The translations under genes were made by a program, and so were the position numbers. Source: Arcobacter sp. LA11 (GTDB taxonomy: Bacteria; Campylobacterota; Campylobacteria; Campylobacterales; Arcobacteraceae). Taken from it: a DNA stretch of 64,000 nt. Shown here piece by piece: positions 42,981 through 62,095 of the stretch; position 1 is the first letter of the stretch; each line of letters begins with the position of its first letter. The notes beneath the pieces are model-generated. The model made no database searches. It was given only the letters and a program-made list of their open reading frames with translations, and was not told the origin of the DNA. The stretch covers positions 310,001 to 374,000 of the forward strand of contig NZ_BDIR01000002.1 in assembly GCF_001895145.1 (NCBI RefSeq), given 5' to 3'.

Positions 42981-44180
42981 TTACTCAATACCCTTAACAA
43001 TTTTATATGTGTCGTTAGCAATAACGTATTCTTCATTTGTTGGAATAACAAAGATTCTACCATTTGAACCATTAGTAGAAATATCTCTAGCTTCCCCAGA
43101 TCTTTTGTTATTTTTAGTTGGGTCAATGTTTAATCCCATATAATCTAACCCAGCACAAACTTTTTCTCTGATAAGTGCAGCATTTTCACCAATACCACCT
43201 GTGAAACATAATGCATCAACACCATCAAGTGCAGCAGCATATGAACCAACGTATTTTTTGATAATGTATGCAATCATATCAACTGCAAGTCTACATCTAT
43301 CATCACCAGCATCCATACCTTCTAATACTTCTCTTAAATCAGAAGATTTTCCAGAAATACCAACGATACCAGATTTTTTATTTAAAGTATCTAACATCTC
43401 TTTGATGTTCATACCTTCAGTTTCCATCATGTATTGGATTGCTCCTGCACCAATATCACCAGATCTTGTACCCATCATTAAACCTTGAACAGGAGTAAGA
43501 CCCATTGAAGTATCGATACATTTACCATCAAATATTGCAGATACAGAAGAACCATTACCTAAATGACAAACGATAATTCTTGTATTATGTTTTTTATCTA
43601 ACATTTTAACAGCTTCATTTGATACAAAGTAGTGTGATGTACCATGGAAACCATATTTTCTAACACCATTTTTAGTGTATTGCTCATATGGAAGTGGATA
43701 CATATATGCATAATCAGGCATAGTTTGGTGGAATGCAGTATCAAATACGGCTACATTTGGCTTACCTGGCATTAATTCTTGACAGATTTCCATACCCATA
43801 ATATTTGCTGGATTATGTAATGGAGCTAAAGGAATAAGCTCTTTCATTTTGTTAATTACTTTATCACTTACCATTACAGAACTAGCGAATTCTTCCCCAC
43901 CATGTACAGCTCTGTGTCCAATAGCTTCAATATCATCTACAGAATCAATAACTTTACCTTCACCATCAGTTAAAGTTTTTAATACTAATTCAATAGCTTC
44001 TTTATGTGTAGGCATTGCAGTTTCAATTTTCATTTTTTGGTCATCACCAAACTCATGTTTTAAAACACCATCAATTCCAATTCTTTCACAAATTCCTACT
44101 GCTAAAACTTCTTTGTTTACTGGATTCATTAATTGATATTTTAATGATGAACTTCCTGCATTTAAAATAAATACTAACAT
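42981..44180 (-). CDS. ackA: Acetate kinase 1
   Basis: AckA interconverts acetyl phosphate + ADP and acetate + ATP. The 399 residues show the ASKHA signature MLVFILNAGSSSLKYQL. The active-site residues lie in AIGHRAVHGG (Arg), FDTAFHQTMP (Asp), GFHGTSHYFVS (His), MMGTRSGDIGAG (Arg) and NEEYVIA (Glu), with GIGENA for nucleotide binding. It lies 39 bp downstream of pta, in the same direction, so the pair forms the acetate-acetyl-CoA route. A second acetate kinase gene lies on the other side of pta. Confidence 0.97.
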   Translation of the reverse strand: MLVFILNAGSSSLKYQLMNPVNKEVLAVGICERIGIDGVLKHEFGDDQKMKIETAMPTHKEAIELVLKTLTDGEGKVIDSVDDIEAIGHRAVHGGEEFASSVMVSDKVINKMKELIPLAPLHNPANIMGMEICQELMPGKPNVAVFDTAFHQTMPDYAYMYPLPYEQYTKNGVRKYGFHGTSHYFVSNEAVKMLDKKHNTRIIVCHLGNGSSVSAIFDGKCIDTSMGLTPVQGLMMGTRSGDIGAGAIQYMMETEGMNIKEMLDTLNKKSGIVGISGKSSDLREVLEGMDAGDDRCRLAVDMIAYIIKKYVGSYAAALDGVDALCFTGGIGENAALIREKVCAGLDYMGLNIDPTKNNKRSGEARDISTNGSNGRIFVIPTNEEYVIANDTYKIVKGIE

Positions 44181-44219
44181 ATATCTTTCCCCTATTTTTA
44201 AATTAAATTTCTTTTATGT

Positions 44220-45212
44220 TTACGATTGTGTAGCTGTAATAGCTACTAAGTTTGAAATATCTTCAACTGAACAACCTCTTGAAAGGTCATTAACTGGTTT
44301 ATTTAAACCTTGAACAATTGGTCCATGAGCATCTGCTCCTGCAAATCTTTGAACTAATTTATATCCAATATTTCCAGCTTGTAAATCTGGGAACACTAAG
44401 ATATTAGCACGTCCAGCTACTTTAGAATCTGGTGCTTTTTTAGCTCCTATTGCTTCAACGATTGCAGCATCTGCTTGCATCTCTCCATCGAAAGCAAAAT
44501 CAACATTTCTGTCTTTTAAGATTTGAACTGCATCTTGAACTTTAGATACTAGTGGATGTTTTGCACTTCCCATTGTTGAGAATGATAACATTGCAACTCT
44601 TGGTTCTAATCCAACTACAGAAGATGCAGTTGCAGCAGTAGATGAAGCAATATCAGCTAATTGTTCAGATGTTGGGTCTGGTAGTACAGCACAGTCAGCA
44701 AATAATAATAAACCATTATCTCCAAATTTTCCATCAGCTGTTTCCATCACGAAAGCTGAAGATACAGTTTTGATACCTGGAGCAGTTTTAATAACTTGAA
44801 TTGCAGCTCTTAATACATCTGCCGTTGGTGAGTTTGAACCAGCAACTAGTCCATCAGCATCACCTAATCTAACCATCATACAACCAAAAAATCTTGGTTC
44901 AGTAGTCATGATTTCTTTAGCTTCAGCTTTTGTAAGACCTTTTGAAGCTCGTAATTCAACTAATTCATCAACATATTTTTCAATACCATTGTACAATTTT
45001 GGATCAATAATCGTAGCACCTTCAATTGAAGCGCCACAAGAAGCAGCATCAGCTTTAATTGTCTCCTCATTTCCAATTAAAACTACATTTGCAGTTTTTT
45101 CCTCTAAAACAATTTGTGCAGCTTTTAATACTCTTTCGTCTTCAGATTCTGGAAGAACGATTGTTTTCAGTTGTTTTTTAGCATTTTCTTTTATACTTTC
45201 AATTAAACCCAT
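44220..45212 (-). CDS. pta: Phosphate acetyltransferase
   Basis: Pta interconverts acetyl-CoA and acetyl phosphate. This is the short 330-residue form without the DRTGG/BioD N-terminal domains of E. coli Pta. Landmarks are VLPESEDERVLKAAQ (19-33), DADGLVAGSNSPTADVLRAAIQ (117-138), LSFSTMGSAKHP (about 210) and NILVFPDLQAGNIGYKLVQR near 270. It is the first gene of pta-ackA1. A TATAAT at 45242-45247 (minus strand) is its likely -10, preceded by three 11-bp-spaced TAGCAT boxes. Confidence 0.97.
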   Translation of the reverse strand: MGLIESIKENAKKQLKTIVLPESEDERVLKAAQIVLEEKTANVVLIGNEETIKADAASCGASIEGATIIDPKLYNGIEKYVDELVELRASKGLTKAEAKEIMTTEPRFFGCMMVRLGDADGLVAGSNSPTADVLRAAIQVIKTAPGIKTVSSAFVMETADGKFGDNGLLLFADCAVLPDPTSEQLADIASSTAATASSVVGLEPRVAMLSFSTMGSAKHPLVSKVQDAVQILKDRNVDFAFDGEMQADAAIVEAIGAKKAPDSKVAGRANILVFPDLQAGNIGYKLVQRFAGADAHGPIVQGLNKPVNDLSRGCSVEDISNLVAITATQS

Positions 45213-45241
45213 TCAAGTTTCCTTTATTGTAAAATCAATAA

Positions 45242-45247
45242 ATTATA
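45242..45247 (-). promoter_or_regulatory. -10 element of pta-ackA1
   Basis: TATAAT on the minus strand, 29 bp upstream of the pta ATG. The nearest TAGCAT box begins 12 bp upstream, so the boxes cover the -35 position, as expected for an activator-dependent promoter. Confidence 0.6.
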
Positions 45248-45258
45248 TTACCCAAACG

Positions 45259-45286
45259 TAGCATTAAAATAGCATTAACATAGCAT
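45259..45286 (-). promoter_or_regulatory. Triple 11-bp direct-repeat operator (acetate box) upstream of pta
   Basis: Read on the plus strand, TAGCAT occurs at 45259, 45270 and 45281, exactly 11 bp apart (ATGCTA on the coding strand). Eleven-bp direct repeats put successive half-sites on one DNA face, the arrangement bound by OmpR/PhoB-class response regulators. Similar two-copy versions occur ahead of both yjcH-actP operons. An additional inverted repeat TTTTATACA / TGTATAAAA lies at 45298-45328. Confidence 0.6.
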
Positions 45287-45407
45287 TTTTGAAAAAGTTT
45301 TATACATATTTTCTTGATGTGTATAAAAGTAGTACATACTCTTTACTAAAGTATATATTTTGGTAGATTATTAGATTAGTTTATAATTTTGGTGACCAGT
45401 AAAAGCA

Positions 45408-46595
45408 TTAAGCTTTTACTAGTTTATAAGTATCATTTGCAATTACATACTCTTCATTTGTAGGTATTACATAAATTTTTGTTTTTGAAGAATTTGTATT
45501 GATTTCTCTATTTTCATCGTTTCTAACTTTGTTTTTATCTTCATCTAATTCAACACCCATGAACTCTAATCCATTACAAACTTTTTCTCTAATTAAGTCT
45601 GCATTTTCTCCAATACCTGCTGTGAAACAAATTGCATCAACACCTTCAAGCATTCCTGCATATGAACAAATATATTTTTTGATTCTATTACATTTCATGT
45701 CAATTGTAGTTGCTGCTCTTTCATCACCATTTTCACAAGCTTCAATAATCTCTCTTAAATCAGAAGAAATCCCTGAAACCCCTAGAAGACCAGATTTTTT
45801 ATTTAAATAGTTTACTGTTTCTTCTGCAGTCATTCCTTTTTTATCCATTAAGTAAGATAAAACACCCGCATCAATATCTCCTGATCTAGTACCCATAACT
45901 AAACCTTCAAGTGGAGTAAGTCCCATTGATGTATCAATTGATTTACCATCTCTTACCGCACATACTGATGAACCATTACCTAGATGACATACAATAACTT
46001 TTGAATCTTCTTTATTTAACATTTTTTTAGCTTCATTTGAAACATAGTAGTGCGATGTACCATGGAAACCATATTTTCTAACACCATGTTCTTTATAATC
46101 TTCATATGGAACTGCGTACATATAGTTTGAAGCTGGCATAGTTTGGTGAAAGGCAGTATCAAATACAGCTACATTTGGTTTTGTAGGCATTATTTCTTGT
46201 GCAATTTTCATACCCATAATATTTGCTGGATTATGTAGTGGTGCAAGAGGGATAAGTGATTCAAGTTTAGCAATTACTTCATCATCAACTATTACAGATT
46301 GATTAAAGAATTCTCCACCATGAACAACTCTATGTCCAATAGCTTGAATTTCATCAATTGAATCAATAACTTTATCTTCTCCATTTGTTAAAAAGTCTAA
46401 TACAATCTCAATAGCTTCTTTATGCGTTGGCATATTAATATCTTTTTTGATTTTATGTTCATTTGCTTCGTGAACTAATCTACCATCAATTCCGATTCTT
46501 TCACAAAGTCCAGTTGCTTTTACTTCGGCAGTTTCTGGATTCATTAATTGATATTTTAAAGAAGAACTTCCTGAGTTTAGAACTAATACTAACAT
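45408..46595 (-). CDS. ackA: Acetate kinase 2 (paralogue)
   Basis: A second full-length acetate kinase, 395 residues. It keeps all active-site segments: LNSGSSSLKYQL, AIGHRVVHGG, FDTAFHQTMP, FHGTSHYYVS, VMGTRSGDIDAG, GIGENADLIREKVC and NEEYVIANDTYKLV. It differs from copy 1 in the segment DMKCNRIKKYICSYAG, where copy 1 has DMIAYIIKKYVGSYAA, giving two extra cysteines. It stands alone, 195 bp upstream of pta on the same strand, without a TAGCAT box. It probably has separate regulation or a different preferred direction; propionate kinase activity is a possible alternative. Confidence 0.95.
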   Translation of the reverse strand: MLVLVLNSGSSSLKYQLMNPETAEVKATGLCERIGIDGRLVHEANEHKIKKDINMPTHKEAIEIVLDFLTNGEDKVIDSIDEIQAIGHRVVHGGEFFNQSVIVDDEVIAKLESLIPLAPLHNPANIMGMKIAQEIMPTKPNVAVFDTAFHQTMPASNYMYAVPYEDYKEHGVRKYGFHGTSHYYVSNEAKKMLNKEDSKVIVCHLGNGSSVCAVRDGKSIDTSMGLTPLEGLVMGTRSGDIDAGVLSYLMDKKGMTAEETVNYLNKKSGLLGVSGISSDLREIIEACENGDERAATTIDMKCNRIKKYICSYAGMLEGVDAICFTAGIGENADLIREKVCNGLEFMGVELDEDKNKVRNDENREINTNSSKTKIYVIPTNEEYVIANDTYKLVKA

Positions 46596-46679: not shown

Positions 46680-47300
46680 TTATTTTATTTTTACTTTTGG
46701 TTGATTTTTAAGTTTTAAAAACATCATTGCTGTCATAATAGCATCATTGTAAGCATCGTGTTTCCCCATTTCAGGAATTTGAAGATCTTTCATTATTGCA
46801 TCGAATCTAAGATCAATATTACTTTGAGGGATTTTTTCTATTTTATAGTCATGATATATTCCAGATACTTCATAAGTTTTATTAGGTAATTTAATCCCGA
46901 TTTTTGGTTTTAAATATTTATTTACCATGGCAACATCAAACTCTAAAAAATATCCAACAAGTTTTCTATTTCCAACAAATTCTAAAAACTCTTCAATTAC
47001 TACAGCAATATCTTCTGCTTCTTCTAAATCCATTTCTCGTATGTGATGAACTTTAATTGCTTCTATTTGAAGCTTTGTTTTTGGTTTAACAAACTTTACA
47101 AATTTTTTACTTGAAACTATCCTATTCCCTTTGATTAAAACAGCACCGATTGATATGATATCATCATTTTCTACACTTAAACCGGTTGTTTCACAATCAA
47201 AACATACATATTCATCACTTGTAGGAGTATCAAAAAGATATAAATATTTTTCATCTTTTAAATTTTTTTTATTGAAGTAGTTTTGTATTTTTCTAAACAT
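46680..47300 (-). CDS. DnaQ-type 3'-5' exonuclease linked to acetate symporter genes (copy 1)
   Basis: A 206-residue DEDDh exonuclease of the DnaQ/RNase T superfamily. ExoI is YVCFDCETTGLSVENDDIISIGAV (D and E near 32-34), ExoII is near VGYFLEFDVAMVNKYL (about 132), and ExoIII is MGKHDAYNDAIMTAMMFL (His and Asp near 182-187). It overlaps the DUF294 gene by 8 bp, so the two are co-translated. In Pseudomonas and Vibrio the same pair occurs beside acetate symporter genes, so it is probably part of that module and not a replication proofreader. Its substrate is unknown. Confidence 0.88.
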   Translation of the reverse strand: MFRKIQNYFNKKNLKDEKYLYLFDTPTSDEYVCFDCETTGLSVENDDIISIGAVLIKGNRIVSSKKFVKFVKPKTKLQIEAIKVHHIREMDLEEAEDIAVVIEEFLEFVGNRKLVGYFLEFDVAMVNKYLKPKIGIKLPNKTYEVSGIYHDYKIEKIPQSNIDLRFDAIMKDLQIPEMGKHDAYNDAIMTAMMFLKLKNQPKVKIK

Positions 47301-49134
47301 AATTTAACTTATAATGATGTTCTAATTTTTTCTTTAATTTATTAACAATTTTAAAACTATCTTTTAATAAATCTTTTTCCATTGTATTTAGATTATCAGG
47401 ATTTATGTAGTTATCAATTGTTTGACCACTATCCATTTTTTCTAGATTAGATTTTAATTTGATTGTTAGTAAAAATTTAAATGATTCTATTAATTCTGAT
47501 GCAAATTCTTCATCAAGTTCACCAAGTTCTTTTAGCTCTTTAATTCTTCTTATTGTATTTACTCTCATTAATTTATGTTCTAATGATAGTGTTCTAATAC
47601 TTTGAACAATTATGAAAATACCACCTCTTTTTATATCAATTTCATTATCATGTTCTTTATCTGTTGAATCAAATACGAAGCCATCAAAGAATCCTAAAGG
47701 CACATCAAAGTCCATAATAATTTTTGCAAAGTGCATATAAAAAGTTTTTGAAGTCGAACCTATTTTAAATAGATATTCTTTTAGTTCTGTCAATATTTTT
47801 CTATCTTCTGTTACTGACATTGCATCATAGAAAATTGCAAGATTCATAAAGTTATCACCACTTGGTTTTGTAACCCATTCATAAATCAAGTCTTTAAAAT
47901 CTTTCTGTCTTCTACACCAATATGGATTAGAAACCATAATATTACCTTCACATCTTGGAAATCCAAAATCTACAAGATGTTCTGTATATTCATGAGTATA
48001 TTTTAAAATCTCTTCATCACTTAAAGTACAATCATCAGCAATTATAAGAGCATTATCTTGGTCTGTCTTTAAAATTTGTTCAGCTCTTCCTTCACTTCCC
48101 ATTACTACTAAACATGCTTTGCCTAAAAGTTCTTCAGGTGCAGTTAGTTTAAATAGTTTGTTCATTACTTTTCTATTTAATTGATTGATTAATTTTGAAA
48201 TAAAATCAACTTTTACACCTTTTGCATTTAGTGATTTTATAATTTTTGTAAATGATTGAGAGGCTTCTTTCAATTCTTCTATAGTCTCTGCTTTTGATAT
48301 TGTATTTGATACTGAAAATGTATGTGTCGCAAAAAAAGAAGATAAAGAAATTTGATCTATTATTCCACAAATTTCATTTTGGTCATTTTTAACTACAACT
48401 CTTTTTAGACCGTGTTTAGCCATAATTAATTGGGCATTAAATAAGAAGTCATTTTCGTTTACATATACAAGACCTTTGTTTGATATCTTTCCAACTATAT
48501 CATCAAAATCCATTCTATTTAATATTACTTTTTCTCTAAAATCTGAATCAGTTACAATATACATTTCGCCGTTTTCATCTTTTAAAAGTAAAGTTGGTAC
48601 TTTTTCTTTCTTTATTGTTGTAACTGCATCAAAAATTGAGGTATTATATGGAACTATTACTGCTCTATGTACATTTGCCTCTTTTACTTTTGCTACCATT
48701 AAATTTGATAATTCTTTATTTTTCTGATTATTAATATTTGCATTTAATTTTTGAGAGATACTTTGAAAGAAAAAACTTTCTAATGCAGAATTTTCATGTA
48801 ATGTTTTTATAAAAATTGCACGTGGTAGTGTATAGCATATTGTTTCTTGTGCTGTGACAAAAGTATGTTTTGAGTAGTTTTCGATAAGTGAAATAGGATC
48901 AAAAAATTCATTTGTTGAATATATTGACATAACTTCTTCATCTACTTTTTCTTGAACTAAACCTTTAATAATAAAATATAAATTTTCAGGTTCACTTCCT
49001 TGTTTTTGTAATACTTCATCTTTTTTTAGATAAACAATATCTAGATTTTCTGCAAACTCTTCCCGTTGTACTTTTGTCAAGTTTTCAAAAGGATGAATTG
49101 ATTTTATAAACGTTGTTTGTTCAAGTATACTCAT
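47293..49134 (-). CDS. cNMP/CBS/DUF294 nucleotidyltransferase signalling protein (copy 1)
   Basis: A 613-residue cytoplasmic regulator. Order of domains: cyclic-nucleotide-binding fold (about 10-135, KDEVLQKQGSEPENLYFIIKG), a CBS pair (about 155-275, PTLLLKDENGEMYIVTDSDF and KRVVVKNDQNEICGIID), and a DUF294 nucleotidyltransferase with VVMGSEGRAEQILKTDQDNALI near 340-362. A helical DUF294_C substrate-binding region ends the protein. The GSxGRxE..DxD pattern is that of GlnD-like nucleotidyltransferases and looks intact. It is encoded with a DnaQ exonuclease and an acetate symporter, twice in this window. Target and nucleotide are unknown. Confidence 0.88.
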   Translation of the reverse strand: MSILEQTTFIKSIHPFENLTKVQREEFAENLDIVYLKKDEVLQKQGSEPENLYFIIKGLVQEKVDEEVMSIYSTNEFFDPISLIENYSKHTFVTAQETICYTLPRAIFIKTLHENSALESFFFQSISQKLNANINNQKNKELSNLMVAKVKEANVHRAVIVPYNTSIFDAVTTIKKEKVPTLLLKDENGEMYIVTDSDFREKVILNRMDFDDIVGKISNKGLVYVNENDFLFNAQLIMAKHGLKRVVVKNDQNEICGIIDQISLSSFFATHTFSVSNTISKAETIEELKEASQSFTKIIKSLNAKGVKVDFISKLINQLNRKVMNKLFKLTAPEELLGKACLVVMGSEGRAEQILKTDQDNALIIADDCTLSDEEILKYTHEYTEHLVDFGFPRCEGNIMVSNPYWCRRQKDFKDLIYEWVTKPSGDNFMNLAIFYDAMSVTEDRKILTELKEYLFKIGSTSKTFYMHFAKIIMDFDVPLGFFDGFVFDSTDKEHDNEIDIKRGGIFIIVQSIRTLSLEHKLMRVNTIRRIKELKELGELDEEFASELIESFKFLLTIKLKSNLEKMDSGQTIDNYINPDNLNTMEKDLLKDSFKIVNKLKKKLEHHYKLNYV

Positions 49135-49287
49135 AATCTCTCTTTATTTAATTTTTATTGTATTACTAATAATTTTAACTTAAAATGAATAAAATAGTTA
49201 TTATTATTTAGCTTAATTTTTGAAAAAAACGTCGATTTTATGGGAAATAATGTAAGAAAAATGGAATTTTATTAATTTGTAGGATTC

Positions 49288-49317
49288 TTTATCAAAGGAT
49301 AAAAATCCTTTGATAAA
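49288..49317 (-). terminator. Hairpin after actP1
   Basis: TTTATCAAAGGAT / ATCCTTTGATAAA arms with an AAAA loop, 19 bp after the actP1 stop. Confidence 0.7.
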
Positions 49318-49335
49318 AATTTATAATTTTTTGTA

Positions 49336-50985
49336 TTAGTGGTCAACTGCTCCAGCTGAACCAATACCTGTATTTGCTCTAACATTTTGAGCTCTAAACA
49401 TCTCTTTTTCATTTTTCCCTCTTTCAGAGTTATCTGTTTTAGAGAAGAACCAGATACCAACAAAGGCAACTGTTACAGAGAATAGAGCAGGGTGTTTATA
49501 TGGGAATAATGCTTCAGCATTTCCTAAAATTTGCACCCAAACAATTGGTCCAACTATAACAAGAGTAACGGCAGTAAGTAATCCTGCAAGACCACCTAAG
49601 AATGCACCTCTTGTTGTTAATCCTCTCCAGTAAATAGATAAGAATAAAATTGGGAAGTTTGCAGATGCAGCAATACCAAATGCTAGTCCAACCATATATG
49701 CGATATTTTGTGATTCAAAAGCAATACCTAAAGTAACACCAACAATACCAACAGCTACAACTGTGATTCTTGAAATTTTAACAATTTGCTCATCAGATGC
49801 ATCAGGATTGATTACATTTGAGTAAAGGTCATGCGAAATTGCAGATGCTCCAGCAAGAGTTAATCCAGATACAACTGCTAAAATAGTAGCAAATGCAACA
49901 GCTGAAATAAATCCTAAGAATGCGTTACCACCTAACATATGTGATAAGTGAATTGAAGCCATATTATTTCCACCAAATAGTTTTCCATCAACATAATATT
50001 GAGCACCTTCTGGTGAATTTAAGAATGCGATTGCACCAAAACCAACAACAGTAATAATAATCCAGAAGTAACCAACAAAACCAGTTGCATAAACAACAGA
50101 TTTTCTAGCTTCTTTAGCATTACCAACAGTAAAGAATCTCATAAGTACGTGTGGTAAACCAGCAGTACCAAGCATAAGTGCCATACCAAGTGAAATAGCA
50201 GAAATAGGATCAGAGATAAATCCACCTGGTGCTAAAATTGATTCTCCTGCAGTGTGATTTTCAACTGCTTTAACAGCTAAAGATTCAAATGAGAAATCAA
50301 ATGCATATAGAACCATAACCGCCATAACTGTTACACCTGTTAGAAGTAAACAAGCTTTAATAATTTGTACCCAAGTAGTTGCAAGCATACCACCAAAAGT
50401 AACGTAAATAATCATCATTACCCCAACAAGCATTACAGCAAACTCATATTCCATACCAAATAGTACTTGAATAAGCTTTCCTGCTCCAACCATTTGTGCA
50501 ATTAAGTATAAAACAACAACTGAAATTGTACCAAATGCAGCTAGTGTTCTAATCTCTTTTTGACCAAGTCTATATGCTGCAATATCAGCAAAAGTAAACT
50601 TACCTAAGTTTCTTAACTTTTCAGCCATAAAGAAAAGAATAATTGGCCATCCAACTAAGAATGATACTGCATATATAACACCATCATAACCTTTTAAATA
50701 AATTAAACCAGATACTCCAAGGAATGCAGCAGCAGACATATAATCACCTGCAATTGCTAAACCATTTTGGAAACCAGTAATTCCTCCACCAGCAGTATAA
50801 AAGTCAGATGCAGATTTTGTTTTTCTTGCTGCCCAAACTGTTAAACCTAAAGTAAATACAATAAAAGCAAAAAACATAATAATTGCAGGAATATTAAGTT
50901 CTCTTTTTGTTGCTTCAAACGTTGCATCACCAGCAGCAAATGCGCCTAATGCAATAATAGAAATAAGTGCTAATATTTTAAACAT
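49336..50985 (-). CDS. actP: Cation/acetate symporter (copy 1)
   Basis: ActP imports acetate with sodium or another cation. The 549-residue sodium:solute symporter has a possible leader helix ([18 protein letters not shown]), then about 13 TM segments. Family landmarks are [31 protein letters not shown] (about 60-90), [65 protein letters not shown] and [29 protein letters not shown]. It begins at the last base of yjcH, so the two are coupled. It closely resembles copy 2 at 59890. Confidence 0.94.
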
Positions 50986-51299
50986 TATAATAAATCCTTT
51001 ACATCTTCTTTAATCTCATCATTTAAATCTTCAAACTCACCATTTGCTCTTTTTACGTAGATAACAGTAGTTAAAAAACTAATAACTAAGATAGCTAATG
51101 CAATAGGAAATGCAATTGTTGTAAGCCCATCACCCATTTTTGTAGCTAATAGCTCTTTATTAAATGCGATTACCATAATGTATGAATAAAACATTACAAG
51201 TACAAAAATACCTAACTTAATACCAAAGCTGTTCTTTTTAGAAACCAGCTCTTGGTATTTAGGATTGTTTTCAATCCTCTCTACTAATTCGTCCTTCAT
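50985..51299 (-). CDS. yjcH: DUF485 (YjcH) membrane protein, ActP partner (copy 1)
   Basis: A 104-residue inner membrane protein of the DUF485/YjcH family, regularly encoded directly ahead of actP. Two TM helices lie at about 24-45 ([22 protein letters not shown]) and 60-83 ([23 protein letters not shown]), followed by the family motif [20 protein letters not shown]. It probably assists acetate uptake. The stop overlaps the actP start by one base. Upstream are the TAGCAA/TAGCAT box and TGTA repeats. Confidence 0.93.
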
Positions 51300-51749: not shown

Positions 51750-51785
51750 ATAACCTTACATTCTTGTTTTTGAGTGTAAGGTTAT
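51750..51785 (-). terminator. Terminator of the molybdoenzyme operon
   Basis: ATAACCTTACA / TGTAAGGTTAT arms with a 14-nt loop. It begins 4 bp beyond the TAA at 51790-51792 and 61 bp beyond the in-frame TGA at 51847-51849. Confidence 0.8.
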
Positions 51786-51789: not shown

Positions 51790-52200
51790 TTATTTAATAG
51801 CAGTTTTTATTATTTGTCTTGCTAAACTAGCAACTTGAACTCCTGCTCAACTACTTCTATAAATCAAATTTACATTTAATAATAGTTCATAGTTTCCTTT
51901 TTCATAAAATTCTATAGAAGAAAAAGGAATTCCATTTTCTACTTCTGGTTCTTTTTTTGAAGTAAAATGTTCAATATCAATAAATGCTACTATATTATAT
52001 CCTGAAGGTAACTTTGACTCACTTAGTTTTATTTCTATTTTATTTTTTCCTATAAAAAATTTTGAAGGAATAATAACTTTTACATCTTGATTTGAATAAT
52101 AGTCAAAATCTTTTTTAACTATTGGACAAACTTTTGAAAAATCTTCTTCAGCAATAAGTAGTGTCAAAGAAATAAATAGTAGTGCCAAAATAGTTTTCAT
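51790..52200 (-). CDS. Small secreted protein with in-frame UGA (possible selenoprotein) ending the molybdoenzyme operon
   Basis: The frame starts at 52200 with a signal peptide (MKTILALLFISLTLLIA). It carries one cysteine (FSKVCPIVKK) and a beta-rich domain (VKVIIPSKFFIGKNKIEIKL). It reaches a TGA at 51847-51849 after NVNLIYRSS, 117 residues. The same frame then continues AGVQVASLARQIIKTAIK to TAA at 51790-51792, just before the terminator. Thirteen nt after the TGA is a perfect 6-bp hairpin with a GTT loop, in the position and form of a bacterial SECIS. It may be a selenoprotein with Sec118, a recent nonsense mutation, or simply a 117-residue protein ending at the TGA. The family is not recognised. 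It is coupled to dmsB (9-bp gap). Confidence 0.6.
51819..51833 (-). promoter_or_regulatory. SECIS-like hairpin downstream of an in-frame UGA
   Basis: On the minus strand, TTGCTA - GTT - TAGCAA forms a perfect 6-bp stem with a 3-nt loop starting with G. The loop begins 19 nt after the UGA, within the spacing I know for bacterial SECIS elements, which also need a G in the first two loop positions. No U-tract follows, so it is not a terminator. Confidence 0.45.
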
Positions 52201-52209: not shown

Positions 52210-52839
52210 TTATAGTCTATGCACTTTATTCGGCATTGATGAATGAATAAATCTTGTACTTGGTTTTGTTGGTGCTTCAACTGCATAATCAAGACCTAAA
52301 GGATTTTTTTCTCCTATATTTGCATATTTTGGATCATGAATATCAACAACTTGTATCGCTTCAACTGGACATGATTGAACACATGCTGGTAGTTTGCCAT
52401 CAGCTTGTCTCTCCCAACACATACTACATTTTTCTGCTTTTCCTAATTGCTCATTAAATTTAGATGCTCCAAATGGACATGCTTTTACACATCCTCCACA
52501 TCCTATACATAAACTTTGGTCATGTTTACAAATACCAGTTTCTGGATCTTTTGTATGTGCTTGAACTGGACAAACAGCTACACATGCTGGCTCTTCACAA
52601 TGATTACATGCAATTGAAGCATAATATCTTTCTGCTGGAACTTCTACTTTAGGAGGTTTTGCATACCATACAAGTGTAGGTAAAATATTATTTTGATCTG
52701 TTCTATACTCTTCATGACCTATTTCTCTTACTTGTCTCCATAAAATACCCTTATCTTGATGATATTGATTTTTACAAGCCATTGCACAGGTATTACAACC
52801 TAAACATTTATCACTATCTACTAAAAAAGCTTTTTGCAT
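52210..52839 (-). CDS. Four-cluster ferredoxin subunit of the molybdopterin oxidoreductase (DmsB/PhsB type)
   Basis: A 209-residue electron-transfer subunit with four [4Fe-4S] sites. CLGCNTCAMACK is near residue 12, CNHCEEPACVAVCP near 73, CIGCGGCVKACPFG near 106, and CSMCWERQADGKLPACVQSCP near 131-150. It should pass electrons to or from the catalytic subunit encoded just upstream (10-bp gap). A membrane anchor (DmsC/NrfD) normally follows; here a small secreted protein gene follows instead, so the quinone-side partner must be elsewhere or absent. No Tat signal of its own, so export by hitchhiking is expected. Confidence 0.92.
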   Translation of the reverse strand: MQKAFLVDSDKCLGCNTCAMACKNQYHQDKGILWRQVREIGHEEYRTDQNNILPTLVWYAKPPKVEVPAERYYASIACNHCEEPACVAVCPVQAHTKDPETGICKHDQSLCIGCGGCVKACPFGASKFNEQLGKAEKCSMCWERQADGKLPACVQSCPVEAIQVVDIHDPKYANIGEKNPLGLDYAVEAPTKPSTRFIHSSMPNKVHRL

Positions 52840-52849: not shown

Positions 52850-55126
52850 TTATACTTTTCTAATGTTTACATAAGTATCTTGTAATGCGACACCTGGTGC
52901 ACCAGTTTTGAATAGACCCATATCAGAAGAAGTATCATCTACTAATTCATTTACATTATAAATACTATTGTTGTACCATTGTTCATACATCATAAATGTC
53001 CCAACTGGAGTATTATCTGTAATTTTTGCCTTAACACGTAAAAGACCTTGTTTATTGAAAACAGATACCATGTCACCTGTTTTAATTCTTTTATATGTTG
53101 CATCTTCAGGATTGATGTATACAAATGGTTCTGGATGAATATCTTCCATCCAATCAATATTTTGAAACTGTGAGTGAAGTGAAAATCTAGAGTGTAGAGT
53201 TGTTAATCTATATTTATCATATGGTTTTCTTGTTTCTAAATATTCAGGCAATGCAGTGTGTCCATATTCAAGTGCTTGTTCTGAATAGAATTCAAACTTA
53301 CCGCTTGGAGTACCAAATTTACCATCTGCAAATGGAATAACTGCTTTTGCTTTTACTGGTCCATTTTCTAGTTCTTTCCATGATTTTATTCCAAATTGTT
53401 CATAAATTCCTTTATTGAATTCTTTACTTGTAAGTTTTTTACTATCGTATTTTTGAGGGAAAGTACAAGAACCTTTCTCTTTTTTATTCATATATACTGA
53501 GAGTAAAGAAGCAATTTCTAAATCAGATTTTACTTCATGTAGAGGTTTTATAGCTTGTTGATTTATACTTAACCAGTAGTGCCAATAAGAGACATTTACA
53601 TCATACTCTTCAAATTGAGTTGTAACAGGCAATACAATATCTGCCCATCTTGTAGTTTCATTGAAAAACTGGTCAGCTACAATAACTGTATCAACACTAT
53701 TAAATGCTTTTATAAGTTTATTTCTATCAAAATCTTGAGCCATTGGATTTTTACATGCAACCCAAAGAAGTTTTATTTTTGGATCAGTTGCTGTTAGTAT
53801 TCCTTCTGCTGTTTTATTAATATTTAAATACCTATCAGAGTATTTAACTTTTTTAGCACTATCAGCTCCATGCATATCTCCCATTACTGCATTTGATGCC
53901 GTATACCCAATACTTCCTTTTGGTTTAGGATTTGTCATTGCATTATAATTAAAGCCCCAAGTATGCAAATGTCCATATCTAGCACCACCTGCATATTTAC
54001 CTACATTTCCAGTAACTGCAACTAAAGCGTCTATTGCTCTAACCATTGAACCACCGTTTGTGTGTCTTTGAATACCATAACCAATCCAAATAGTTGCAGG
54101 GTCTGCTTTTGCAAAACCTAATGCAATCTCATGAATTAATTTTTCAGATAATCCACTTACTTCAGATGCTTTTTTTACTGATACTGTTTTTAAATACTTC
54201 TCAAATTCTTTATATCCATGTGAGTTCTTCTTTAACCATTTTTTGTCATGTAGATTATTATCAATAATTATTTTAGCCATAGCTAAAGCTAGTAATCCAT
54301 CACTTCCTGCTTTTACTTGGAAATATTCATTAGCTTTAGATGCAGTTTCTGTAAATAAAGGATCAATTACAATAACTTTTGCACCTTTTCTTTTTGCTTC
54401 ATAAATATATTTCATAGTATGAATAGAGTTTGAAGCTGGATTAACTCCCCAAAGAATAATATATTTACTATCTTTCATCTCTTCAGGGTCATTACACCAC
54501 ATATTTCCAGTATCAAAATTTTGTGCATCAATTCCTGCTGGCCAACATGGAGTTCCTCCAAATCTTGTTGTATATCCAAGAGAACTAAACATACCTTCAA
54601 CACCATAGTGAGTAATACCAAAGTTACCAGAGTATTTTGTAAGTGCTGCACCTAACAAGTGTCCATCTTCTTTTTTCATATTTAAGAATTTATCACCAAT
54701 ATGACCAATAGCTTCATCCCAAGAGATTCTTTTCCATGAACCAGAACCTTTTCCACCAACTTGCATCATTGGGTACTTGATTCTTTTAGGAGAATAAACT
54801 CTTCTTACATAAGAGTTTCCTTTAACACAACAACCACCATTTGTAAAAGTTGATTCTGTTGCCCCTTCTATAAATTGCATTACCCCATCTTTTACAAAAG
54901 TCTTTATACTACAAGTATCATAACAGTTCCTTGGACAGGCATTTCTGAAGGTTTCATAAGCCTTTTCTCCTAAATAAGGAATCTTAGTATTTAAAGATTC
55001 ATTTGCTAGAAGTCTTCCTCCTGGTAATACTGATAGAACACCACAGGCGACTAAACCTTTTAAAAAACTTCTTCTTTGAAGGCCATCATTTAATATACCT
55101 TCTACTTTTTCTTTTGAATAACTCAT
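52850..55126 (-). CDS. Tat-exported molybdopterin oxidoreductase, DMSO-reductase superfamily catalytic subunit
   Basis: A 758-residue periplasmic Mo-bisMGD enzyme. The twin-arginine signal is LQRRSFLKGLVACG (Arg18-Arg19). The [4Fe-4S] ligands are Cys64, Cys68, Cys72 and Cys100 (ACPRNCYDTC and CVKG), with an extra Cys99 beside the last. The molybdopterin domains include ILWGVNPASNSIHTM, KVIVIDPLFTETA and IWIGYGIQRHTNGG. At the metal-ligand region the sequence reads FGGTPCWPAGID, so Cys194 is a candidate Mo ligand. DMSO reductases use Ser, so the substrate may be a sulfur or other compound. It could also be annotated DmsA, PhsA or acetylene hydratase-like; I cannot decide. Confidence 0.85.
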   Translation of the reverse strand: MSYSKEKVEGILNDGLQRRSFLKGLVACGVLSVLPGGRLLANESLNTKIPYLGEKAYETFRNACPRNCYDTCSIKTFVKDGVMQFIEGATESTFTNGGCCVKGNSYVRRVYSPKRIKYPMMQVGGKGSGSWKRISWDEAIGHIGDKFLNMKKEDGHLLGAALTKYSGNFGITHYGVEGMFSSLGYTTRFGGTPCWPAGIDAQNFDTGNMWCNDPEEMKDSKYIILWGVNPASNSIHTMKYIYEAKRKGAKVIVIDPLFTETASKANEYFQVKAGSDGLLALAMAKIIIDNNLHDKKWLKKNSHGYKEFEKYLKTVSVKKASEVSGLSEKLIHEIALGFAKADPATIWIGYGIQRHTNGGSMVRAIDALVAVTGNVGKYAGGARYGHLHTWGFNYNAMTNPKPKGSIGYTASNAVMGDMHGADSAKKVKYSDRYLNINKTAEGILTATDPKIKLLWVACKNPMAQDFDRNKLIKAFNSVDTVIVADQFFNETTRWADIVLPVTTQFEEYDVNVSYWHYWLSINQQAIKPLHEVKSDLEIASLLSVYMNKKEKGSCTFPQKYDSKKLTSKEFNKGIYEQFGIKSWKELENGPVKAKAVIPFADGKFGTPSGKFEFYSEQALEYGHTALPEYLETRKPYDKYRLTTLHSRFSLHSQFQNIDWMEDIHPEPFVYINPEDATYKRIKTGDMVSVFNKQGLLRVKAKITDNTPVGTFMMYEQWYNNSIYNVNELVDDTSSDMGLFKTGAPGVALQDTYVNIRKV

Positions 55127-55671
55127 GATATCTCTCCTTTAATTTTGAGCTCATTTTGGAAAAAACTATTTAATTCTTTTATTATCAAATTAATTGCATT
55201 TGATTTTTTATTTTTATTTTCTAATACTCTATTTGTAAATTTAAATATCCATGTATTTATATGTTCACATAAAAAATAAGTTCTCAAATCTTTTAAATAT
55301 GGAATATCTTTTTCAATCTCAATAAAAAGTAGTTGGTAGTATGCATCTAATTCTAAACCTATAAAATCTTCTGGAACTCTATCTTTTAGGGAGTTTTTAA
55401 ATCCCATAATTTCATATAAATCTCGTATTTGCATTGTAGTTTTTGTCATTAGTGCTTCTTCTTCGTCTAAATAAATAGAGGCATAAGGAGGAGCAATAGG
55501 AGTATCTGGCCCAATAAAAAAATAATTAAACTCTGTTTCAAGCTTTATTTCAGAGATTTTTGTATCTTGAACTAAACTTGAAAAAGCTTCAAATAACTCT
55601 TTTGAATTATTACTTAAAAAGATATCTCTTAAGTTTTCTGCTGTTTTTAATCTATTAGAATTTGTATTCAT
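55123..55671 (-). CDS. TorD/DmsD-family molybdoenzyme chaperone
   Basis: A 182-residue helical protein of the TorD/DmsD/NarJ family, which holds the apo-catalytic subunit and its Tat signal until the cofactor is inserted. Visible landmarks are NYFFIGPDTPIAPPYASIYLDEE (about 49-71), PEDFIGLELDAYYQLLF (about 98-115), and CEHINTWIFKFTNRV near 130. It is the first gene of the operon and overlaps the catalytic subunit start by 4 bp. Confidence 0.88.
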   Translation of the reverse strand: MNTNSNRLKTAENLRDIFLSNNSKELFEAFSSLVQDTKISEIKLETEFNYFFIGPDTPIAPPYASIYLDEEEALMTKTTMQIRDLYEIMGFKNSLKDRVPEDFIGLELDAYYQLLFIEIEKDIPYLKDLRTYFLCEHINTWIFKFTNRVLENKNKKSNAINLIIKELNSFFQNELKIKGEIS

Positions 55672-55837: not shown

Positions 55838-56521
55838 TTGAAAAGTGTTAAAACTAGGTTAAAAGCTGTAACTATACTTTATGCTGAAGATGAAGTGGGA
55901 ATTAGAAAAAATATTATGAAAACATTATCTTATTATGCAAAAGAGGTTTATGAAGCTTCAAATGGACAAGAAGCTTTTGATTTATATGAAAAAAATAAAC
56001 CAGATATTATTCTAAGTGATATTCATATGCCTATTATGGATGGAATAGAATTTATAAAAAAAGTTAGGCAAACTGATAAAAATACACCTGTTGTAATGAT
56101 AACTGCACATACTGATAAGAAATATTTACTTGAAGCAGTTGAATTGCATATGGAAAAATATATTGTTAAACCAATTAATACAAAAATGTTATTTGAAGTT
56201 TTAGGAAAATGTATTGATGCTTTAAATATAAATTGTGTGATAAATCTAAGTTGTGATAAAAATTATAGTTATGATTTTGATAATAAAAAATTAATGTATA
56301 AAGATGAGGTAATAGTTTTAAATAAAAAAGAGGTCTCTTTTGTAGAATTACTTATAAATAATCAAAATAGAGTTGTAAAATATGAAGAGATACAAGATAA
56401 AGTTTGGCAAGATAATGTTATGACTGATAGTGCATTGCGATCAGTTGTTTTACACTTACGAAAAAAGTTACCAACTAATATTATAAATAACCTCTCTGGG
56501 ATAGGATATAATCTTGTCTAG
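55838..56521 (+). CDS. OmpR-family response regulator
   Basis: A 227-residue two-component regulator. The receiver has the acidic pocket AEDE near 16-19, the phosphoacceptor Asp61 in ILSDIHMPIMDG, Thr89 in MITAH, and Lys111 in YIVKPI. The C-terminal winged helix (about 145-227) contains LNKKEVSFVELLINNQNRVVKYEEI and ALRSVVLHLRKKLP. The start is TTG at 55838 after AAGGGG. It is followed by an overlapping solute-binding protein gene and a sensor kinase, and divergent from the molybdoenzyme operon, which it probably controls. Confidence 0.9.
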   Translation: MKSVKTRLKAVTILYAEDEVGIRKNIMKTLSYYAKEVYEASNGQEAFDLYEKNKPDIILSDIHMPIMDGIEFIKKVRQTDKNTPVVMITAHTDKKYLLEAVELHMEKYIVKPINTKMLFEVLGKCIDALNINCVINLSCDKNYSYDFDNKKLMYKDEVIVLNKKEVSFVELLINNQNRVVKYEEIQDKVWQDNVMTDSALRSVVLHLRKKLPTNIINNLSGIGYNLV

Positions 56522-58160
56522 AATATTTTTTTTATTGATGATTTTAATAGTATATTCTCATACTATGGATAATATAGAAGAAGATATATTTAAAGAAGAT
56601 AAATCTTCTTTAGACGCTATAAACTATTTGCATCCTAAATCACATATAAAAGTATTTCTTCCTAGTATTCCTTATATTTATATATCAAAAAATACAAATG
56701 CTGGACTTATACGTTCTGATGATAATGAACAAGGTTGGGTATATGATTTAGCCAAATCTCATGAACGAATAGATGATTATACTTATATTTTCGAAATCAA
56801 AAGAAATTTAAAGTTTCAAGATGGTACTTCTTTTACAATTGAATCGGTTATGAATAATTTAAATCATTTTAAGAAGAATCCTTTTTTATTCACAAATGTT
56901 GATAAAATAGATTTTGAAATTACAAAATTAGATGATTATAGAATAAAAATTAAATTAAAACAGAAGTATGAGATGTTTTTTTTAGACTTGGCAAGAGTAT
57001 TCTTTTTTACAGATGAATATCTTAAAAAATATAATCCAAAAGGCGAAGAGACAGAGACTGGAACAAAAGCTGCTGGAGCTTTTGGTATGGGTCCATATAT
57101 TTTAAAAAGTGGTTATGCAATTGGTAAAAAACAAACTAATAAAATTATACTTGAGGCAAATCCATATTATTGGGATAAAAGATATCCAAAAATTAAAAAA
57201 GTAACTATTTTTACCCAACTTGATGCAAATGAAGCTTTTGATAGTGCTGTAAATTATGAAGGGTTACTTGATATATCGCCTATTCCTTTTGACAAGAAAA
57301 TTGAAGCAGTTATGTCTAAATATTCGAAACTAGTAATAAAAGAGTCTACAAATAATATTATTGTTTTTTTTAATCTTATTAATGGAAATAAAAAGCTAAG
57401 AGATAAAAAAGTAAGAATAGCACTTAACGAGGCTTTAAATCAAGAGAATCTCTTAAATTTTGTATATAAAAAAGAAGGAACACTTTCTCCTTTTTCTACA
57501 TCTATTCATTTTAAAGTAGTAAATAAAATTGCTAAGAAGAAAGAGTACAAAGTATATTCAATGAGTGAAAAAGAGAAGCATAAATTATTAGATGGTTTAG
57601 TTCTTGATGTTTTTACTCAAGATCGTTTTATGTTTTTATGGAGAGGAATTGAGTATCAACTTGAACAATATGGAGTAAAGTTAAATTATCTTGTTACAAC
57701 TAGTGAAAAAGATATTTATGAACAATTACTTAATACAAAATCTTCTAAAAATAGTAAGTCTTGGGATATGTTAGCTTGGGGTGATGATGATTGGTATTAT
57801 CAAAATCCTTGGACAACTCTATTTATTTATGAAAGTGATTCTCCTTGGTCTACCATTCCTAATGACGCATTTATGAAAAAATATATTGATAAATTTTTTG
57901 AAACTAAAATAGATGAATCAGAATATGAAGATGTTGTTTCAAAGATTTTATATAGAGCAAGAGATATGGCATATACTTTAAGAGTACCATCTATAAATAA
58001 AGTAATAGCTGTAAATAAAGAGGTGATTTTTGAACCATATGAGGGAGGTATTATTCCTTTATGGAAAACAAAAATTACAAAAAAACATTGGTCTGTTAGA
58101 AAGAAAGTAAATTATCCTGAAAATCTACATCAGCCAATAATTCCCCTAAGGGTCAAATAA
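56514..58160 (+). CDS. Family 5 periplasmic solute-binding protein, likely sensor component
   Basis: A 548-residue extracellular solute-binding protein of the peptide/nickel class (SBP_bac_5). Signal peptide at 1-18 (TTG start, FFLLMILIVYSHT). Family segments: YTYIFEIKRNLKFQDGTSFTIESV (about 83-106), GAFGMGPYILKSGYAIGKKQTNKIILEANPYYWDKRYP (about 184-222) and NALN-type KVRIALNEALNQENLLNFVY near 300. No permease or ATPase genes accompany it. It overlaps the response regulator by 8 bp and the sensor kinase by 1 bp, so it most likely binds a ligand and signals to that kinase. The ligand is unknown. Confidence 0.88.
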   Translation: MSRIFFLLMILIVYSHTMDNIEEDIFKEDKSSLDAINYLHPKSHIKVFLPSIPYIYISKNTNAGLIRSDDNEQGWVYDLAKSHERIDDYTYIFEIKRNLKFQDGTSFTIESVMNNLNHFKKNPFLFTNVDKIDFEITKLDDYRIKIKLKQKYEMFFLDLARVFFFTDEYLKKYNPKGEETETGTKAAGAFGMGPYILKSGYAIGKKQTNKIILEANPYYWDKRYPKIKKVTIFTQLDANEAFDSAVNYEGLLDISPIPFDKKIEAVMSKYSKLVIKESTNNIIVFFNLINGNKKLRDKKVRIALNEALNQENLLNFVYKKEGTLSPFSTSIHFKVVNKIAKKKEYKVYSMSEKEKHKLLDGLVLDVFTQDRFMFLWRGIEYQLEQYGVKLNYLVTTSEKDIYEQLLNTKSSKNSKSWDMLAWGDDDWYYQNPWTTLFIYESDSPWSTIPNDAFMKKYIDKFFETKIDESEYEDVVSKILYRARDMAYTLRVPSINKVIAVNKEVIFEPYEGGIIPLWKTKITKKHWSVRKKVNYPENLHQPIIPLRVK

Positions 58161-59827
58161 TGAGAATAATTAACAGGTTTAATATCAAGTCAAAATTGAG
58201 TATTTTATTCATCGTTTTATGTTGTTCAGTATTTATTTTTGGATATATAATTATTGATATAAGTGAGAACTCAAAAGGAAGATTAAAAGCAGTTTATCTT
58301 CAATCTCAAGATGTATCACTATTACAAGAAAATATCATAACTCCTTTATATAAATTAAGAGAAAAAACTCAATCTCTTGTAATGGCTCCAAATAAAAAAT
58401 TAAGAGTCAAGATCCAATATGATTTAAATTTATTGATAAAAGAGTTAGAGAAATCTTTTTCAAATTTTCATATAGAAGATGAACAAACAATCAATTTATG
58501 GGATAAATATAAAAAAGTTATAAAAAGAACAAATTATTATTTACAAAGAGGCTTTGAAGAGGGTGCTTATATAAATGTAACAACAAAAGGAAAAGACCAG
58601 TTTGAATTTTTGATAAATCATTTATTGAATTTACAAAGTGAACTATTAAATAAAGCAAAAACTTCTTATTCTAATGCAGTTGAAGAATCAAAGTTATTGA
58701 TTATTGAAATTATAATATATTTATTAATAATTCTATTTTTCTCAATAATTATTGGATGGCTTATTTCAAATAGTATTATTACTTCTATGGATGTTGTTCA
58801 AAGAGGTTTAAATGAGTTTTTTGAATACTTAAATTATAAAAAAGATAAAGCTCAAAAAATTGTTATTCATTCAAATGATGAGTTTTCTCAGATGGCACAA
58901 TCAATTAATCAAAATTTTGAGAATGTAGAACTTAATATCAAAAAAAATGAAGAGTTAATCAAAAATGCAACAAAAGTATTACAAAGTATAAAAAGTGGTA
59001 ATTTAGGAATGAGGCTAACAACAAATACAAATAGTAAAGCTTTAAATGAGTTAAAAATTATGATAAATAATATGATAGATAATTTAGAATACAAAATACA
59101 AAATGAGATAGATAAAAGGTTAGAACAAGAACAGATTTTAATACAGCAATCAAAACTAGCAGCCATGGGAGAAATGATAGGAAATATTGCTCATCAATGG
59201 AGACAACCTTTATCACAAATATCAGCTATTCATATGAATATGTTAGCTACTTATGAATTTAATGAATTCACAGAAGAATATTTAAATGAAAAAATAGAAG
59301 AGGCCGATATGCTTACTTCTTATATGACTCAAACAATCTCTGACTTTCAAAACTTTTTTAATCCTGAAGAAAAGAAACAAATATTTAGTGTAAAAGAGGC
59401 TTGTAATAAGGCTTGTTTTATTGTTAAAAGTGCTTTGAACTATCATAATATAGAGTTAACTTTAAATGTATTAGATGATGAAAAAGTAAATGGATATCAA
59501 AATGAGTATTCTCAAGTGATATTAAATATTTTAAGTAACGCAAAAGATATATTATTAGAAAGAGAAATAAAAAATCCAAAAATTCAAATAGAAATAAAAA
59601 GTGGAGAGGATTATAATATTTTAAAAATAGAAGATAATGCGGGAGGAGTAGATGAAGATATTTTAGATAAGATTTTTGAACCATATTTTACAACTCATCA
59701 TAAAACTCAAGGTACAGGAATAGGTCTTTATATGTCTAAAAATATTATTGAAAGAGAAATGAATGGATTTATAAATGTTAAAAATACTGAAGTTGGAGCT
59801 TGCTTTACAATAAAGGTTCCCCAATAG
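58160..59827 (+). CDS. Membrane sensor histidine kinase
   Basis: A 555-residue kinase. TM1 lies at about 13-34 (SILFIVLCCSVFIFGYIIID), and a periplasmic helical sensor at about 35-175. TM2 lies at about 180-203 (IIEIIIYLLIILFFSIIIGWLI), followed by a HAMP-like linker. The H box is MIGNIAHQWRQPLSQ with His345, a form common in Campylobacterota. The ATPase has NEYSQVILNILSNAKD (N box), IEDNAGGV (G1) and GTGIGLYMSKNII (G2). It ends a response regulator - binding protein - kinase operon. The binding protein probably docks on the periplasmic sensor region. Confidence 0.93.
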   Translation: MRIINRFNIKSKLSILFIVLCCSVFIFGYIIIDISENSKGRLKAVYLQSQDVSLLQENIITPLYKLREKTQSLVMAPNKKLRVKIQYDLNLLIKELEKSFSNFHIEDEQTINLWDKYKKVIKRTNYYLQRGFEEGAYINVTTKGKDQFEFLINHLLNLQSELLNKAKTSYSNAVEESKLLIIEIIIYLLIILFFSIIIGWLISNSIITSMDVVQRGLNEFFEYLNYKKDKAQKIVIHSNDEFSQMAQSINQNFENVELNIKKNEELIKNATKVLQSIKSGNLGMRLTTNTNSKALNELKIMINNMIDNLEYKIQNEIDKRLEQEQILIQQSKLAAMGEMIGNIAHQWRQPLSQISAIHMNMLATYEFNEFTEEYLNEKIEEADMLTSYMTQTISDFQNFFNPEEKKQIFSVKEACNKACFIVKSALNYHNIELTLNVLDDEKVNGYQNEYSQVILNILSNAKDILLEREIKNPKIQIEIKSGEDYNILKIEDNAGGVDEDILDKIFEPYFTTHHKTQGTGIGLYMSKNIIEREMNGFINVKNTEVGACFTIKVPQ

Positions 59828-59889: not shown

Positions 59890-61539
59890 TTAGTGATCAA
59901 CTGCTCCATCTGCACCAAATCCTGTTTCAGCTCTAACATTCTGAGCTTCAAATGCTTTTTGTTCATCTTTTGCTCTTTGAGAATTATCAGTAATTGAGAA
60001 AAACCAAATACCAATAAAGGCAATAGATACAGAGAATAAAGCAGGGTGTTTATATGGAAAAATTGCTTCTGCATTTCCTAAAACTGATACCCAAACAACG
60101 GGACCTAAAATAACTAAAACAACAGCTGTAATAAGACCCATTAGTCCACCAATTAATGCTCCTCTTGTTGTTAATTTAGACCAGTAAATTGATAAGAAAA
60201 GAATTGGGAAGTTTGCTGATGCTGCAATTGCAAATGCAAGACCAACCATAAACGCAATATTTTGTTGTTCAAATGCAATACCTAATACCACTCCTACTAT
60301 ACCAATAGCAATTGTAGCTCTTTTTGAAACTTTAATTTCTTGCTCTTCTGTACAGTTTGTATTTATAACAGAAGCATAAAGGTCATGAGAAATCGCAGAT
60401 GCCCCAGCAAGAGTTAGTCCAGATACAACGGCTAAAATAGTTGCAAATGCTACTGCTGAAATAAATCCTAGAAATACATTTCCTCCTACAACATGAGATA
60501 GATGAATTGCTGCCATATTATTTCCACCAAATAATTTACCGTCAACAAAATAAGCTTGTCCTTCTGGAGAGTTTAAGAAAACAATTGCTCCAAGACCAAT
60601 AATTGCAATTACTAAATAAAAGTATCCAATAAATCCAGTTGCATAAACAACAGATTTTCTAGCTTCTTTTGCATTTCCTACTGTAAAGAATCTCATAAGT
60701 ACATGGGGAAGACCAGCAGTACCTAACATAAGTGCTAAACCTAATGAAATTGCAGAGACTGGATCAGAGATAAAGCCTCCTGGAGCCATAATATCTTGTC
60801 CTAAAGTATGTGTTTCAACAGCTTTTGTAGCTAATGCTTCAAAAGAAAAACCAAAATGACTTAATACCATGAATCCCATAAAAGTAACACCAGATAAAAG
60901 TAATACTGCTTTGATAATTTGTACCCATGTTGTAGCAAGCATACCACCAAATGTTACATAAACAATCATCATTACACCAACTAAAATTACGGCATATTCA
61001 TATTCTAATCCAAATAATACTTGAATAAGTTTTCCTGAACCAACCATTTGTGCAATTAAATATAAAGTAACAACTGCTAAAGAACCAAGTGCTGCAAGAG
61101 TTCTAATCTCTTTTTGACCAAGTCTATATGCAGCAATGTCTGCAAATGTAAATTTACCTAAGTTTCTTAATTTCTCAGCCATTAAGAACAAAATTACTGG
61201 CCAACCAACTAAAAATCCAACTGCATAAACAAGACCATCATAACCTTTTAAATAAACAAGTCCTGATAATCCTAAAAAAGATGCTGCTGACATATAATCA
61301 CCTGCAATTGCCATACCATTTTGGAATCCTGAAATTCCTCCACCTGCCGTATAAAAATCTGATGCAGATTTAGTTCTTTTTGCTGCCCAGTAAGTAATAC
61401 CTAAAGTACCACCAACAAAGATAAAAAACATAATAATTGCAGGAATATTAAGCTCTCTTTTTGTTGCTTCAAACTGTGCATCACCAGCTGCAAACATTGC
61501 AACTACAAAAATTGAAATAAGTGCTAATATTCTTAACAT
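59890..61539 (-). CDS. actP: Cation/acetate symporter (copy 2)
   Basis: A 549-residue paralogue of the symporter at 49336, equal in length and nearly collinear. It shares [54 protein letters not shown] and [27 protein letters not shown]. Differences cluster in the loop after [18 protein letters not shown] and at the C-terminal tail. It is coupled to its own yjcH. The two copies may differ in affinity or expression. Confidence 0.94.
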
Positions 61540-62074: not shown

Positions 62075-62095
62075 CGAAGTAATGTGAATTTTTAA

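Follow-up and report, generated by a model that had tools for sequence, protein, structure and literature searches.

Organization of the locus

The window, that is the whole stretch of 64,000 nucleotides of Arcobacter sp. LA11 that was analysed, was found to contain a molybdoenzyme operon in which the gene of a TorD-like chaperone is followed by the genes of a catalytic subunit (MopB) and a 4Fe-4S subunit and, in the last position, by a candidate selenoprotein gene that starts at 52200 (Table 1). The operon had been recognised in an earlier note made from the sequence of the window, and its gene order was found to be kept in three families. These four genes and the response regulator, solute-binding protein and histidine kinase genes next to them, seven in all, occurred together in the window and at six other loci, again in three families.

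The open reading frame at 51847-52200 of the reverse strand contained 117 sense codons followed by a TGA at 51847-51849, and the frame stayed open for 18 further sense codons (51793-51846) up to a TAA at 51790-51792. The earlier note had claimed a TGA at codon 118, 18 open codons and a TAA placed 4 bp before a terminator, and all of these are present in the sequence, the 14-pair repeat at 51750-51785 lying exactly 4 bp from the TAA. TGA was rare as a stop, ending two of the 43 open frames of at least 200 codons within the window. The N-terminus of the candidate selenoprotein was found to be signal-peptide-like.

Table 1. Features of the molybdoenzyme locus and their positions in the window
Feature	Position	Strand	Remark
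Terminator-like inverted repeat, 14 pairs	51750..51785	.	Begins 4 bp past TAA
Candidate selenoprotein gene	51790..52200	-	136 residues, putative Sec at 118, then TAA
18-codon extension past UGA (AGVQVASLARQIIKTAIK), predicted last beta strand	51793..51846	-	AlphaFold2 and pN/pS
SECIS-like hairpin TTGCTA-GTT-TAGCAA	51819..51833	-	Loop 51825-51827; 21/21 species, wobble-wobble covariation
In-frame UGA, codon 118, putative selenocysteine	51847..51849	-	UGA at aligned position in 21/21 species
4Fe-4S dicluster electron-transfer subunit (DmsB-like)	52210..52839	-	TIGR02951 E 1.2e-42, below curated cut-off
Molybdopterin oxidoreductase catalytic subunit (MopB)	52850..55126	-	Tat-type signal RRSFLKG
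TorD/DmsD-type chaperone	55123..55671	-	First gene of the operon
Response regulator	55838..56521	+	Conserved neighbour
Periplasmic solute-binding protein (SBP_bac_5), no adjoining transporter	56514..58160	+	Conserved neighbour
Histidine kinase	58160..59827	+	Conserved neighbour

The profile scores of the catalytic subunit were below all curated family cut-offs, and the window subunits differ from DmsA and DmsB in scoring below the curated cut-offs. The operon shares a Tat-exported catalytic subunit, a 4Fe-4S subunit and a TorD/DmsD chaperone, encoded in one operon, with the DmsABC, SrnABC and YnfEFGH systems (PMC12724226), whereas the DmsC/SrnC anchor of those systems is absent and the selenoprotein gene stands in its place. 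A DmsC-type membrane anchor was found neither in the window nor at the six other Campylobacterales loci. The closest molybdoenzyme found outside the phylum, with 56% identity, was located on an E. coli plasmid, where the next gene encodes a DmsC anchor and a selenoprotein is absent. This plasmid (CP027641.1, L065:7270-11440) contained a TorD-MopB-FeS-DmsC operon, and among 5426 complete E. coli genomes only two had near-identical DNA over the greater part of this operon (100% and 78%), while three more had remnants of 10%.

Conservation of the in-frame UGA

Homologues with 29-76% identity to the window protein were found in 21 species of three Campylobacterales families, and the aligned codon was TGA in all of them. 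A tblastn-type search of 104 genomes of the window family found the gene in four genomes of a single genus, and each copy had a single TGA in frame, always at the same codon, and its stop at codon 137. When 397 genomes across the phylum were searched with a profile, 12 further carriers with 30-38% identity to the window protein were found in the families f3 and f10, and a wider profile applied to 399 genomes of the order added five carriers. A contig scan of genomes returned three near relatives only, and no homologues were found in plasmids, searched with single-sequence queries, or in viral contigs, for which a profile was also used. A TGA, an open tail and a hairpin common to 21 species are far more than chance. 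The carriers are related to one another, so that the species counts overstate the number of independent events.

Neither Cys nor any other sense codon (Trp, Arg or Gly) was found at the TGA position in the 21 homologues, and replacement of UGA by UGG, UAA or UAG was likewise not found in the 21 species. The search for Cys homologues covered the phylum and the viral contigs by profile and the plasmids by single sequences. The alignment of homologues had been proposed in the earlier note, in which a Trp, Arg or Gly codon at this position without a hairpin was named as evidence against selenocysteine; the expectation of a conserved tail behind the position was borne out with UGA in 21 of 21 species, and the expected mixture of Cys and Sec was not seen, as no Cys form was found. 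A genome-wide reassignment of UGA was considered and rejected, since the TorD gene of the window ends in UGA, as does the same gene in L019-L023 and L069, and UGA thus still serves as a stop there.

Constraint on the tail

The first 13 codons past the TGA contained 14 synonymous and 0 nonsynonymous differences within the window genus (pN/pS 0.00), and the tail in family f10 gave a pN/pS of 0.19, the differences being summed over pairs that are not independent. The motif S-U-[GA]-G...ASLA was invariant in both of its parts, S-U-[GA]-G and A-S-L-A. Homologues ending at the TGA position had been named in the earlier note as evidence against a selenoprotein; the tails were instead found to be conserved as protein and to have comparable end points.

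As a control, the frames were followed past the stops of six neighbouring genes of the island, and they were soon closed, diverged in the most distant relative or overlapped the CDS of the next gene. Some of these control stretches, such as that past the MopB stop, were highly identical among near relatives, so that the control bears chiefly on the comparison with distant relatives.

These data bear on the possibility that the UGA is a true stop or a recent nonsense mutation and that the tail and the hairpin are due to chance or form a regulatory RNA element before the terminator. An open run of 18 codons is by itself not rare, and the terminator-like repeat 4 bp past the TAA would suit such an element; this reading is nevertheless extremely unlikely in view of the same TGA in three families, the purifying selection on the tail as protein, the behaviour of the frames past the six control stops and the predicted core strand that would be lost if the protein ended at the UGA.

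SECIS-like hairpin

The hairpin begins 13 nt past the UGA and has a 6-bp stem and a 3-nt loop with G in the first position, the first loop base lying at +20 nt, and it was found to form in 21 of 21 species. The stem TTGCTA/TAGCAA with a GTT loop, 13 nt past the UGA, is thus present at 51819-51833 as described in the earlier note, and the fit claimed there to the bacterial SECIS rules on loop distance and loop G was confirmed. The bacterial SECIS model comprises a loop of 3-9 nt, a stem of 4-16 bp, a G in the first two loop positions and a loop located 16-37 nt from the UGA (PMC13188914), and the hairpin agrees with it in all features of geometry. A minimal hairpin of 5-6 bp with an invariant loop G is described for this phylum (PMC4607533).

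The window hairpin was found to be weak, with -4.2 kcal/mol alone and about -4.3 kcal/mol with flanks, which is above the published SECIS energy cut-off of -7.5 kcal/mol; the published program may fold a different stretch. SelD, encoded in the same genome, scored -7.1 kcal/mol. Sixteen hairpins were folded, with about -4.2 kcal/mol for the window and two near relatives, -6.9 kcal/mol for L024 and -7.9 to -14.8 kcal/mol for the other 12. Most relatives gave about -7 to -15 kcal/mol with flanks, and the window is AT-rich.

Five of the six stem pairs never vary and are uninformative either way. In the one variable pair the wobble base of an Ala is joined to that of a Leu, both residues being invariant. 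This pair is U-A, C-G or A-U, and the Leu codon (TTA, TTG, CTT or CTG) tracks it, so that the pairing and the amino acid are both kept. The C-G pair was found in L017 and again, with a different Leu codon, in L081. In 500 shuffles neither the observed pairing nor the observed covariation was ever reached, and both were lost when the partner was slid. In the window genus, 8 of 8 hairpin codons were identical; for the remaining degenerate codons at invariant residues the count was 29 of 65 (Fisher p 0.005). Random synonymous coding of the VASLAx peptide with local codon usage gave a perfect stem with the loop G in about 4% of cases per lineage. A search of the genome with Rfam RF00031 gave no match, and since the controls were likewise unmatched the search is uninformative.

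Selenocysteine machinery and probable decoding of the UGA

The genes selA, selB, selC (tRNA-SeC) and selD, which the earlier note had asked to be looked for, naming the absence of selB or selC as evidence against the candidate, were all found together on the contig C14 of the genome, with an E value of 1.9e-93 for selB. The selB gene was present in 16 of 16 carriers tested (of 21), in 10 of 12 non-carriers of the window genus and in 246 of the 397 genomes of the phylum sample (62%).

FdhA (L034) contained one in-frame TGA followed by a hairpin with a G-rich loop, and SelD (L009:1613-2647) contained a UGA in AAG-U-AAKMGPGDL, also followed by a hairpin with a G-rich loop. FdhA and SelD are selenoproteins of this genome, and the open reading frame list cuts SelD at its UGA. 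The candidate resembles these SelB/SECIS-dependent proteins in the UGA followed by a hairpin, the early loop G, the similar spacing and the same selA/B/C/D machinery; it differs from them in being unrelated as a protein, in its Ig-like fold and in that no Cys homologue was found.

The candidate gene was never found without the molybdoenzyme operon in the phylum sample. Of the sampled genomes, 14 contained the molybdoenzyme at E below 1e-200; the selenoprotein was present in 13 of these, and the 14th (G433) was without it and was not among the selB matches listed. G433 is one case, which points in the direction of Sec decoding. Its locus (L064:3257-6760) has the chaperone, catalytic and 4Fe-4S genes and no selenoprotein gene, and its catalytic subunit has 63% identity.

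A leaky UGA could also be read by a near-cognate tRNA (e.g. Trp) with no involvement of selenium, the hairpin merely stimulating the read-through. Downstream RNA structure can in general stimulate read-through, and a tail that has clearly been translated in evolution would be expected under this explanation as well. It is nonetheless very unlikely, as none of the 21 species has UGG, UAA, UAG or a codon for Cys in place of the UGA, the position of the hairpin and its loop G match the bacterial SECIS model, selB is present in all tested carriers and the molybdoenzyme-only genome G433 is not among the selB matches listed.

UGA118 is, in all likelihood, decoded as selenocysteine, as judged from the open frame, its conservation, the hairpin and the Sec machinery. 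A Cys homologue that would confirm the residue was not found, and this gap is filled by the covarying SECIS stem and the association with selB. The reading of the earlier note, a new selenoprotein in a molybdoenzyme operon, is supported by the UGA in 21 of 21 species, the constrained tail, the hairpin and the selA/B/C/D genes. SelB with Sec-tRNA(Sec) would bind the hairpin 20 nt past UGA118 and insert selenocysteine, and translation would run 18 codons further to the TAA, so that the final strand of the Ig-like beta sandwich is completed.

Predicted structure

AlphaFold2, run with 4 and with 16 sequences, predicted an Ig-like beta sandwich in which the residues 120-135 form the last strand, with a mean pLDDT of about 91-95 for this strand in the blocks, so that a protein ending at the UGA would lack a core strand predicted with confidence. 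In the predicted model, Sec118 lies in the turn that connects the penultimate strand to the last. Cys25 and the position of Sec118 were invariant in the 21 species.

Foldseek and VIA-align returned a generic Ig-like sandwich, with Z at most 7.1 and many tied folds, so that no function can be read from the structure matches. No SoxY- or SoxZ-like entry was present among the structure matches listed, which is uninformative, and a sequence search of the PDB gave chance-level matches only.

Proposed function

The gene neighbourhood, with its chaperone, Tat-type oxidoreductase and 4Fe-4S subunit and with DmsC instead of the candidate in the plasmid relative, suggests an exported selenoprotein partner of a periplasmic molybdoenzyme. 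The mature protein would have about 115 residues, with Sec in the turn before its last strand and the invariant Cys near the N-terminus. It would most likely act in the periplasm, as a selenol-based partner, for redox or as a ligand, of the Tat-exported molybdoenzyme encoded in its own operon. The signal peptide and the operon make both the export and this partnership probable. The location of Sec118 in the last turn and the invariant Cys25 suggest selenol/thiol redox chemistry, and a redox role together with Cys25 is tentatively preferred to metal binding, as a best guess.

A selenol binder of metals or metalloids with a CopC-like Ig fold, acting in copper or heavy-metal handling and not as a redox partner of the molybdoenzyme, is possible but unlikely. 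A weak structural likeness to CopC, PcoC and Helicobacter pylori CrdA was found among many Ig-like folds, one member gave a sub-threshold YtkA match, and a review supposes metal binding for many Sec residues. The likeness to these periplasmic copper proteins consists of a generic Ig-like beta sandwich and a similar size, whereas the candidate is without the copper-site pattern and has a predicted Sec, and CrdA, at Z about 6, is tied with unrelated Ig folds. No obvious His/Met-rich metal site is present among the invariant residues, and the strict linkage to the molybdoenzyme operon in the phylum sample also argues against metal handling.

The selenoprotein could instead stand in for a DmsC-type anchor and dock a soluble periplasmic complex to another electron donor, as the plasmid relative has DmsC where the Campylobacterales operons have the selenoprotein and no anchor. 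This is rather improbable in view of G433, in which neither an anchor gene nor the selenoprotein gene adjoins those of the chaperone, the catalytic subunit and the 4Fe-4S subunit, and of the small Ig-like protein itself, which is without a haem or Fe-S motif. On a bolder reading, which is speculative and improbable, the candidate would belong to a Sec-only Ig-like family with no Cys form in nature and would carry electrons, persulphide or selenium intermediates in the periplasm by its selenol, serving a single molybdoenzyme and replacing its membrane anchor.

Relation to known selenoproteins

The decoding mechanism is known, and the protein family appears to be new. None of the NCBIfam families was matched by 16 members and no Pfam family came near its cut-off. 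No entry with such a context or motif was found among the 119 prokaryotic selenoprotein families of the 2026 catalogue (PMC13188914, Table 1), the family is not mentioned in the accessible part of the 2015 survey of the phylum, and no report of it was found in the open-access literature on Sulfurospirillum, Arcobacter and Campylobacterota selenoproteins. DUF466 (KCU-star; PMC4607533) is a small Campylobacterales selenoprotein found by its SECIS, which the candidate resembles in being a small putative selenoprotein of the same phylum; DUF466 differs in its C-terminal Cys-Sec and its Cys homologues in over 1,200 species. Similarity of the candidate to DUF466 was not detected, there being no NCBIfam match.

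In the latest prediction paper every new selenoprotein family had Cys homologues, and a family of the present kind is easily missed because homology-based methods lean on them. With the candidate, the selenoproteins gain a family whose members are cut short by standard annotation. Its predicted Ig-like fold and its linkage to a periplasmic molybdoenzyme that is uncharacterised and has a sensing cassette of three genes make the function directly testable. Characterised selenoproteins are mostly thioredoxin-like.

Surroundings of the island

The SBP_bac_5 protein was located between the response regulator and the histidine kinase without a transporter in three families, which suggests that these three components together sense the molybdoenzyme substrate. 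The island was found to be flanked by two paralogous cassettes of the same order (46680-51299 and 59890-63954), each containing, with names given by eye, a DUF485-like small protein, an ActP-like symporter, an exonuclease-like protein and a nucleotidyltransferase/CBS-type protein. In the region 42981-46595 of the window, two acetate-kinase-like genes (42981-44180 and 45408-46595) flanked a phosphotransacetylase-like gene.
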